From Bacteriovoracaceae bacterium (GTDB lineage Bacteria; Bdellovibrionota; Bacteriovoracia; Bacteriovoracales; Bacteriovoracaceae), in assembly GCA_029865945.1 (NCBI GenBank), contig JARXAH010000047.1, positions 1-50,268 of the forward strand: a stretch of 50,268 bases of DNA, read 5' to 3'. Every line of letters starts with the position of its first letter. Position 1 is the stretch's first letter. Shown here in pieces: positions 4,327 through 32,668 of the stretch. The notes beneath the pieces were generated by a model that was not told the DNA's origin, searched no databases, and saw only the letters and a program-made list of their open reading frames with translations. The translations under genes and the position numbers were made by a program.

Positions 4327-4709
4327 GAACATGCAAATTTTTTTCATTAGCTAATTATTTAGATTTATTGTATCTACCTACGTAGTTTTGTAACTGCCTA
4401 AGGCCCTCTGGAAATTTCGTCACGATTAGGACGACGTTTTGAGGCTTGCTCCTGGCAAGCCGCAGAAAAAGGAGTCCGTAGAGTGGCGAAATTTACGAGG
4501 GACCTAGGTAGTTACGATTTATTAAATTTATCTAACGTAACCCGCCAAGACTCCTTTCTTTTTTACTCACTGTGTAGAAATTTTTACTTGTGTATATTTT
4601 TTAATTTTATTTTTCCTGGGAAGTGGGCCATGGTCCGGCCTTATAGAAAGACGGTTGCAAAATCGTATGAATCATTTAAAAATGCATTTAAATTTTAAAG
4701 GAGAAATGT
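4327..4709 (+). other. Intergenic region with a dispersed structured repeat
   Basis: The 383 bp between rnj and the first lipoprotein gene hold the palindromic element at 4392-4513, described separately. An open frame at 4483-4698 begins inside the repeat and shows no family resemblance; I do not call it. The AT-rich 4515-4690 stretch probably includes the lipoprotein promoter, but I could not fix -35/-10 boxes. AAGGAG at about 4699-4704 is the ribosome-binding site of the next gene. Confidence 0.5.
4392..4513 (+). repeat. Palindromic dispersed repeat, copy 1 (122 bp)
   Basis: The element begins AACTGCCTAAGGCCC and ends GGGACCTAGGTAGTT. The two ends are imperfect inverted repeats of about 32 bp (left ..GGAAATTTCGTCAC, right GTGGCGAAATTT..). 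Inside is a hairpin, GGCTTGC-tcctg-GCAAGCC (4443-4461). A second copy lies inverted at 23965-24109. The core shared segments are nearly identical, but this copy has only 6 bp where copy 2 has a 29-bp insert. No coding capacity is evident. It resembles a non-autonomous mobile palindromic unit (MITE- or REP-like) or a structured RNA. Confidence 0.85.
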
Positions 4710-23850: not shown

Positions 23851-24170
23851 AAAACCACCACTTTACTTAACAAGGATTGAATTAATAATTGTTTATTACT
23901 CTTTAGTCTTTATAAATTATCTTACATAGTAAAAAAAAATGAAACTAGCGTAATAATTATTTATAACGACCTAGGTCCCTCGTAAATTTCGCCACTCTAC
24001 GGACTCCTTTTTCTGCGGCTTGCTTGGAGCAAGCCTCGAAACGTCGTCCCTCGACTGTGCTTGAGCACACTCTCGACGTGACGAAATTTCCAGAGGGCCT
24101 TAGGTCGTTCCATAACAAGTAGGAAGAAAAAATTATTTATACCCCGGATTTAGACTTCAAAAATTCTCAC
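23851..24170 (-). other. Intergenic region upstream of mglA with repeat copy 2
   Basis: The 320 bp between recR and mglA contain the 145-bp palindromic repeat (23965-24109). The AT-rich 23851-23964 stretch must hold the mglA promoter; candidate -10-like boxes (GATAAT, TATAAA on the minus strand) occur, but I cannot assign a -35. No open frame of interest is seen. Confidence 0.5.
23965..24109 (-). repeat. Palindromic dispersed repeat, copy 2 (145 bp, inverted)
   Basis: Read on the minus strand it starts AACGACCTAAGGCCC and ends GGGACCTAGGTCGTT. It matches copy 1 (4392-4513) over nearly all of its length with only a few substitutions. It carries a 29-bp segment containing the hairpin TGTGCT-ca-AGCACA, where copy 1 has 6 bp. 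The shared internal hairpin is GGCTTGCT-cca-AGCAAGCC. The outer stem differs from copy 1 at paired positions (AACGACC/GGTCGTT here, AACTGCC/GGTAGTT there), so pairing is preserved while sequence changed. Confidence 0.85.
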
Positions 24171-31177: not shown

Positions 31178-32668
31178 TTAGAAGGAATCAACGGTGACAA
31201 TTTCATCCGTAATTTGTGAGGCGATCTCAGGAATATAAATTCCTGTAAAAGTATGGCCACAACGCGAGATCCAATAGTTGTTGTCATGGTAAGCGTAGCC
31301 GGGACGATACAGAATGGATTTCAAATTTTCTGAGCCGCTAAAAAAAGTAACACTGGTAAACTGGGAATCATTTTCAGTCGGTTTTTGATAGTAGATTAAT
31401 AGTGACGATTTACTTAAATTTCTAAATTCCATTCCATTAATTATCCACCAATTTGAAAAAGGGTGCTTATTTGTAAAGTTAACGTAATTGGTAGTGGAAA
31501 TCTGCCAATAAATGGGGTCATTAAACATTTGCCCAGGGCATGCCCAACCGGTCATAGTTTCACCTTCTGGAGGAACTCTTTTGATTCCGTGCTCACTACC
31601 TTGAATATAAATGGTTGTCTTCAAGGGGACATAGGAAAAGGAAAGGGATAGCTGTTTTCCGGGATTTACTGCATTTTTTAATGGTGCGAAATTTGGGAAA
31701 AAATCCTCTCGATTGCTCGCAACATAGAGACGATTAGCATTATCTTTATCTTGTGTTTGAATTTGAGTTTGAGTTTGAGTTTGAGTTTGAGTTTGAGTTT
31801 GAGTTTGAGTTTGAGTTTGAGTTTGAGTTTGAGTTTGAGATTGAGATTCTCTCATCTCATATACCTCGCCCAAGTAAGAAAGATCAGATTTTTCAATCTC
31901 AGGTGATAAAAAATCCCATTTCAAATCACCGTCCACAAAATAAAGCACAGGTATCATTTTGGAAACGATGCTTGAAAATTGGTCTTTAAAATTAAAAGTT
32001 TCTGCTCTATCGATGGAATTCAATACTAAACTATTGGGCCAATTAATCGGAAGAGATTTTAACTGGGCAACGACAGCTTCCGCCTCCTTGTAATTCATCT
32101 TCATTCCCATATTGATTTGCTGGTTGCCTTCAATAGAAATGTGCGACGGCAATTGAACAGGAATAATTTCGATTGAACCATCTATCCTAAAATCATCTCT
32201 GGTGCTTGAATTTTGTATAAAATCCAAGGCGTCTTGGCTGGGTAAAAGATAGATATCCATGAGATGAAGAAAATTTTCTCTTAAACTACTAAAATTTGAA
32301 AATTCTTTTTTATCTCCAGTTGAGTTCAGGATATCTGTGAGGGAATTATCTCTCGCCCATTTTAATAATTCATGTTTTACCGCGATCTTCGAGTCAAGCA
32401 ACTTAAGCTTAACAGTTTGTGAGGTAGTGGAATTTGTAAGAACTAAATTGGTGGCCTTAAAATTCCATTTGGGAAAATCGTTTACTTTTTGTCTCAACGA
32501 ATCTTCCAGAAAGTCGGGCCGCAAATCTAAATCGCCATCTTTGCCCAGTCTGGCGGCGGATTTATCAAACCGTTCTGTTGAGGGATTATCTTTTTTGCAG
32601 GAATAAAGATGAGCTGAGCAAAGTAAAAGCACAAAGAATCTCATCCATCTCGATAGATTTAAGTACAT
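31178..32668 (-). CDS. Lipoprotein with Gln-Thr repeat linker, unknown function
   Basis: No family is recognised. A near-perfect Shine-Dalgarno (AGGAGG, 5 nt spacing) supports the ATG at 32668. The 496-aa product has a signal peptide with lipobox LYSC (Cys24), then a domain to about residue 280 including DLDLRPDF. A (QT)12 linker follows, encoded by a hexanucleotide tandem repeat, then a C-terminal domain rich in aromatic residues and with a Cys near each end (WACPGQ, SRCGHTF). Two domains joined by a flexible linker suggest a surface or periplasmic adhesin- or enzyme-like role, but none can be named. It converges on the barrel gene. Confidence 0.7.
   Translation of the reverse strand: MYLNLSRWMRFFVLLLCSAHLYSCKKDNPSTERFDKSAARLGKDGDLDLRPDFLEDSLRQKVNDFPKWNFKATNLVLTNSTTSQTVKLKLLDSKIAVKHELLKWARDNSLTDILNSTGDKKEFSNFSSLRENFLHLMDIYLLPSQDALDFIQNSSTRDDFRIDGSIEIIPVQLPSHISIEGNQQINMGMKMNYKEAEAVVAQLKSLPINWPNSLVLNSIDRAETFNFKDQFSSIVSKMIPVLYFVDGDLKWDFLSPEIEKSDLSYLGEVYEMRESQSQTQTQTQTQTQTQTQTQTQTQTQTQIQTQDKDNANRLYVASNREDFFPNFAPLKNAVNPGKQLSLSFSYVPLKTTIYIQGSEHGIKRVPPEGETMTGWACPGQMFNDPIYWQISTTNYVNFTNKHPFSNWWIINGMEFRNLSKSSLLIYYQKPTENDSQFTSVTFFSGSENLKSILYRPGYAYHDNNYWISRCGHTFTGIYIPEIASQITDEIVTVDSF
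31765..31836 (+). repeat. Hexanucleotide tandem repeat, 12 perfect units
   Basis: GAGTTT is repeated 12 times without interruption, with degenerate units on both sides (GTGTTTGAATTT before, GAGATTGAGATT after). On the minus strand it encodes Gln-Thr dipeptides inside the lipoprotein. The unit is a multiple of three, so copy-number change alters linker length without a frameshift. Confidence 0.95.

Follow-up and report, generated by a model that had tools for sequence, protein, structure and literature searches.

Background

What kind of sequence is a short palindrome that occurs twice, in opposite orientations, on a single bacterial contig, and whose ends differ between the two copies in such a way that they still pair? 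The question was raised by a preliminary description of the window (the whole 50,268-nucleotide stretch of DNA analysed here), which saw two possible causes: a folded RNA or single-stranded DNA on which selection acts, or a non-autonomous palindromic unit that has moved recently. Our analysis supports both readings together. In our favoured explanation, to which we assign a probability of about 0.7, the palindrome is a miniature inverted-repeat transposable element (MITE) moved by an IS66 transposase, and within it lies a conserved, independently inherited core that would act in folded, single-stranded form, most likely as RNA.

MITEs of bacteria are commonly regarded as insertion sequences (IS) that have decayed, with an interior of no consequence. 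Here, the interior is conserved and the ends change. Correia/NEMIS, ERIC and QMITE2 are short, intergenic, palindromic MITEs of bacteria that fold as RNA with stable transcript folds, and the Correia element is known to be cut by RNase III (PMC10969869). The Chunjie MITE of Geobacter uraniireducens and the multicopy palindromes of G. metallireducens are size-variable palindromic MITE families, and one multicopy set is reported to resemble sequences in many other genomes (PMC10969869, PMC2700814).

Results and discussion

Two complete elements in the window

The boundaries and internal features of both window copies are given in Table 1. The inverted recurrence noted earlier was confirmed (92% complementarity over 96 nt and 90% over 40 nt), as was terminal pairing with a compensatory difference between the copies (AACTGCC/GGTAGTT in copy 1, with a G-U pair, and AACGACC/GGTCGTT in the mate), and the inner hairpin GGCTTGCT/AGCAAGCC is present. 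An element does lie at both places, but the limits first proposed for it (4392-4513 and 23965-24109) missed the outer left end GTATCTACCTACGTAGTTTT (4370-4389). Similarly, the description of the copies as near-identical does not extend to their module content, as the longer mate has an extra hairpin module. Each copy sits inside a perfect 8-bp target-site duplication, which had been overlooked.

Table 1 Features of the two element copies in the window
Feature	Position	Strand	Evidence
Copy 1, complete element, 146 bp	4370..4515	+	Covariance-model match, 172.5 bits; aligned with other copies
Copy 1, left target-site duplication GATTTATT	4362..4369	.	Identical to 4516-4523
Copy 1, outer left end GTATCTACCTACGT, identical to bases 1-14 of the IS66 terminal repeat	4370..4383	+	
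Copy 1, inner left repeat GTAACTGCCTA, pairs with right end	4390..4400	+	
Copy 1, conserved central hairpin GAGGCTTGCTCCTGGCAAGCCGCA	4441..4464	+	Pattern match; within R2 core match 4407-4501
Copy 1, right end ACCTAGGTAGTTAC (GTAACTACCTAGGT on the other strand)	4502..4515	+	End-sequence search; pairs counted in covariation test
Copy 1, right target-site duplication GATTTATT	4516..4523	.	
Mate, complete element, 168 bp	23963..24130	-	Covariance-model match, 143.1 bits; sequence
Mate, target-site duplication AAATAATT, 3' side (read on - strand)	23955..23962	.	
Mate, target-site duplication AAATAATT, 5' side	24131..24138	.	
Mate, extra hairpin module TCGAGAGTGTGCTCAAGCACAGTCGAGG, absent from copy 1	24049..24076	-	Alignment with other copies

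Fold stability is far beyond chance. The + strand of copy 1 folds at -71.8 kcal/mol, compared with -38.1 ± 3.6 kcal/mol for shuffled sequences (z -9.5), while its - strand folds more weakly (-57.4 kcal/mol, z -6.5). The mate folds at -76.1 kcal/mol (z -7.1).

Copies throughout the genome

The preliminary description had counted two copies, and reserved its doubt for the case that no others existed or that the end stems no longer paired. A DNA search located the element at about 35 places in its genome (G000; 3.08 Mb, 103 contigs), a number that includes halves of single copies split at contig ends and that was confirmed using a covariance model (R1) built from 21 genome copies; the ends pair in both window copies. 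Many copies are found at contig ends, as expected because repeats break assembly, and split halves were recognised by their equal 8-bp flanks (ACTATTTC on contigs 49 and 39; ATTGTTTG on contigs 33 and 99).

Copies range from 146 to 216 bp and have no transposase gene inside. The left end is double: the outer end GTATCTACCTACGT is followed, after a short spacer, by an inner copy GTAACTACCTA, which is the pairing partner of the right end. The interior comprises a central hairpin and a long stem whose bulges are fixed. The terminal inverted repeats, outer left GTATCTACCTACGT and right GTAACTACCTAGGT, are equal at 12 of 14 positions. Whole hairpin modules are present in some copies and missing from others, the longest (216 bp) having three extra. 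These extra hairpins are of four types, each present or absent as an entire module (L024, L026-L028, L031-L037).

Perfect 8-bp target duplications flank 10 of the 13 tabulated copies (eight found by automatic comparison; the other two, one of them the mate, once the boundary had been moved by one base, as read by eye and then tested), a number reached in none of 20,000 shuffles. The two flanks of copy L003 differ: one is identical to the flank of L006 and the other is close to that of L011, a pattern that recombination (or misassembly) between copies would produce.

A resident IS66 element with matching ends

Searching with the end sequence revealed an IS on contig C76 (1337-2850), whose two perfect ends, GTATCTACCTACGTCCCT, lie 1.5 kb apart and begin with GTATCTACCTACGT, as does the outer left end of the element. 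This IS encodes one protein of 471 aa that matches the IS66 transposase family NF033517 (E 3.8e-83) and Pfam PF03050 (E 1.7e-42). The flanks of the C76 copy do not match. The ends of a second IS66 of the genome (L260) read GTAACTACCCA, and AAAAAAAG stands on both sides of it as a perfect duplication of 8 bp. In two related genera, the IS66 ends GTATCTATTCAGCG (G016) and GTAACTACTCACCCCC (G018) resemble the MITE ends of still other related genera (G084, G025).

Based on the target duplications, the copy number and the resident IS with shared ends, the element is, as far as sequence can establish, a MITE, that is, a small non-autonomous transposon. Its mobility can be read from the perfect 8-bp duplications of many copies together with the resident IS66 with matching ends, in agreement with the suggestion of a mobile non-autonomous palindromic unit. 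In the mechanism that we propose, an IS66-family transposase encoded elsewhere (the C76 IS) would recognise the ends GTATCTACCTACGT... and GTAACTACCTAGGT..., and very probably it moves the element in trans, creating the 8-bp target duplication.

IS66 MITEs are an already known kind of element. IS66-family insertion sequences and their non-autonomous derivatives share with the present element the ends GTA(A/T)CT..., the 8-bp target duplication and a resident transposase with matching ends. They are unlike it in that its interior is not IS-derived and that its folded core is common to families of other end types, and no description of an IS66 MITE of such build was found in the literature searched.

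One core in families with different ends

Model R1 also detects elements in other genera, which have quite different arms and the same central hairpin (consensus GAGGC(T/G)T(G/A)C-loop-GYANGYCGCA). Within the bacterial family, 16 of 115 genomes contain the hairpin pattern; among 291 genomes sampled from the phylum, 22 do. A reversed control pattern matched none of these genomes, and one genome has 108 matches to the hairpin pattern itself. When 31 cores from about 20 genomes were aligned, invariant bases were seen around conserved loops; the core has conserved GA/GCA and (T/A)AGG/CAACG loops.

A search of the element's own genome with a model of the core (R2) recovered families with other ends. 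At least five families of this genome have the core hairpin, and they differ in ends and target duplications (8 bp for IS66; TTA/TAA; TA; CTAN; CCTCAG). TTA/TAA duplications flank 6 of the 7 copies with reliably identified ends in the family that ends in TACCAATTCCGTTTAAT. The family with ends TACTGATGCAGG sits at TA, and its equivalent in genome G022 has ends TACCCTTCGCAG. Duplications of 4 bp, CTAG and TAAA, accompany the ends GGGGCC(G/T)TTGAAAAA, with CTAG and CTAT in G022. Finally, a copy with ends CCTCAG/CCTGAG (L322) is flanked on both sides by TTAGTTAA, as read by eye. The CCTGAG family (L322-L331, own genome) is built like the window family: here too the left end is double, its outer part being followed by a spacer and then by an inner end copy, which pairs with the right end.

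Because at least four other families carry the core with different ends and target duplications, we infer that the core has an inheritance of its own, separate from that of the transposase. That it is a conserved structure carried by MITE families with unrelated ends is well supported, and this recurrence, together with pairing that compensating mutations maintain, suggests selection acting on the folded centre. With R2, the window copy reaches only 22 bits (E 9e-4 for 90 kb; approximately 0.03 for the whole genome) and older copies of its family 27-29 bits, values that fit descent from a common core, weakly if taken alone.

About ten viral contigs carry the full core. Many other pattern matches in viral contigs are without paired arms and look like chance, and a search of viral contigs with an exact 21-mer gave no match. 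The core query gave one short, chance-level match against plasmids. An 18-mer search of named genomes returned ten single matches in unrelated organisms, which is approximately chance level, and was not used. Neither the element nor its relatives matched Rfam at the gathering score.

With Correia/NEMIS, ERIC and QMITE2 the element shares short intergenic palindromes and stable transcript folds. It differs from them in sequence and core, and each of those is described as a single family with one kind of end, whereas here one core has several. Membership in Correia/NEMIS was rejected, as the element has an 8-bp duplication instead of TA, and other termini. Similar palindromes occur in delta-proteobacterial genomes and, like the viral contigs that carry the core, serve as a lead. 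The Geobacter multicopy palindromes, by their published description, could be relatives. No description of the core was found in the literature searched.

Placement of cores behind genes

In other genomes, low-copy cores have a gene on their right side that is read towards the element and whose stop codon is approximately 45-60 nt away. Using simple ORF calls, the right-side gene was found to end against the core in 26 of 30 cases (<< 14, >< 12, <> 3, >> 0), and in 15 of 16 cases in a second low-copy set, mostly from G213; over the two sets, >> is absent or rare. Downstream of nuoI, among 20 genomes of one genus (L292-L311), the core is present in four species, reduced to remnants in three and absent from the rest. 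At one of these loci (L304), it was lost between direct repeats GCGGCTGA.

Cores behind stop codons, and directly behind nuoI in particular, are what would be seen if the core were a host 3'-end element (a terminator, RNA stabiliser or insulator) that had been picked up by several MITEs. We regard this explanation as rather unlikely, given that a terminator-like site (a G+C-rich stem followed by a T run) was found at neither window copy and that MITE copies in the element's own genome are not clearly oriented with respect to genes.

The low-copy cores L272-L283 (G213) and L221-L231 (several genomes) have locus-specific outer arms, yet these are almost fully paired (GGAACCTCTT...AAGAGGTTCC and AGAAACTT...AAGTTTCT are examples). 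Between the orthologs L222 and L226, the arms differ as AACGG/CCGTT versus AGCGG/CCGCT. The locus-specific arms in G213 gave rise to the idea that cores insert into the loops of pre-existing hairpins. Two observations speak against this: the outermost bases (GAA.../GAG...) are common to the arms of a family, and comparison of the nuoI loci shows deletions and remnants and no intact empty hairpin. We prefer, without proof, fast compensating arms to insertion into pre-existing hairpins.

Probable selection on pairing

In the alignment of the window family, 12 of 50 pairs have changed on both sides, compared with 0-5 pairs in slid controls, and the cells with both-side changes number 21 versus 4.2 in shuffles. 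The covariation covers the arms as well as the inner hairpins. Departures on the + strand are G-U in 60 cells at 15 positions and A-C in 4 cells at 3 positions, and for these as for the covariation counts the cells are not independent events, since the copies are related. The alignment of cores from many genomes is 94.6% paired and contains 64 both-side-change cells, versus 19 ± 3 in shuffles and 3-20 in slid controls; the cores in this alignment were picked by pattern, which introduces some ascertainment of the G-U pair within the hairpin. Together with the retention of the core across families with unrelated ends, the covariation and the preponderance of G-U over A-C on the + strand speak for the proposed selection on a folded RNA or single-stranded DNA. 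The low-copy relatives have no G-U excess (156 vs 151), and strand-specific RNA selection is therefore not general; general selection on the + strand was rejected as unsupported outside the window family.

Compensatory changes could also be a mutational by-product in an ordinary MITE without selected function, if template switching by DNA polymerase within the palindrome copied one arm from the other. The arms are indeed long and near-perfect, the low-copy relatives have perfect locus-specific arms without strand bias, and the loss of the core between direct repeats in one ortholog is a slippage event. However, template switching should erase internal mismatches as well. Unpaired bases and mismatches inside the palindrome are fixed across the aligned copies, and the stem keeps its internal bulges, and the hairpin base its GA/GCA loop, across genera too. 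A core common to families with unrelated ends is also left unexplained, and we consider template switching an unlikely explanation.

The E. coli REP hairpin is AAGGCG...CGCCGCA. That the core resembles REPs in its mobilisation too, with a RAYT (Y1) transposase working on single-stranded DNA, is highly improbable and was rejected: its hairpin is of similar shape and REPs likewise sit behind genes, but of the genomes with the core 20 of 27 have Y1 transposases and of those without it 26 of 35, none is present in the genome with 108 pattern matches, the core lies near 0 of 20 Y1 loci, and the 8-bp duplications are those expected of DDE-type transposition.

A proposed folded passenger

We return to a MITE, very probably moved by an IS66 transposase, with a core of separate descent. 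The element is more than an IS in decay: between the ends lies a conserved folded core and not IS remnants, comprising a hairpin GAGGC-stem-GCCGCA set within a long stem that has some mismatches. Action of this core as a folded single strand is favoured, probably as RNA and less probably as single-stranded DNA. Of the concrete leads on what the core does, a role at the 3' ends of genes is the strongest. Most likely, it would act as RNA within transcripts that cross the insertion, where a host factor may bind or process it and so render insertions near genes tolerable or useful.

More tentatively, and at somewhat less than even odds, a single folded core, conserved across the phylum in both sequence and structure, may travel with MITE families whose transposases are unrelated to one another (with 8-bp, 4-bp, 3-bp and TA duplications). 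It would constitute a transposase-independent selfish or regulatory module of RNA or single-stranded DNA, whose fast compensating arms let it adopt new transposase ends. Its logic would then be comparable to that of SINEs, which borrow different machinery. If the core is functional, this would explain the persistence and spread of such palindromes, provide an uncurated RNA family of hundreds of members for testing, and offer a natural experiment in which one passenger is carried by several transposases.

Elsewhere in the window, a 496-aa ORF on the - strand (31178-32668), for which no NCBIfam family match was obtained, contains tandem TTGAGT hexamers at 31751-31846.
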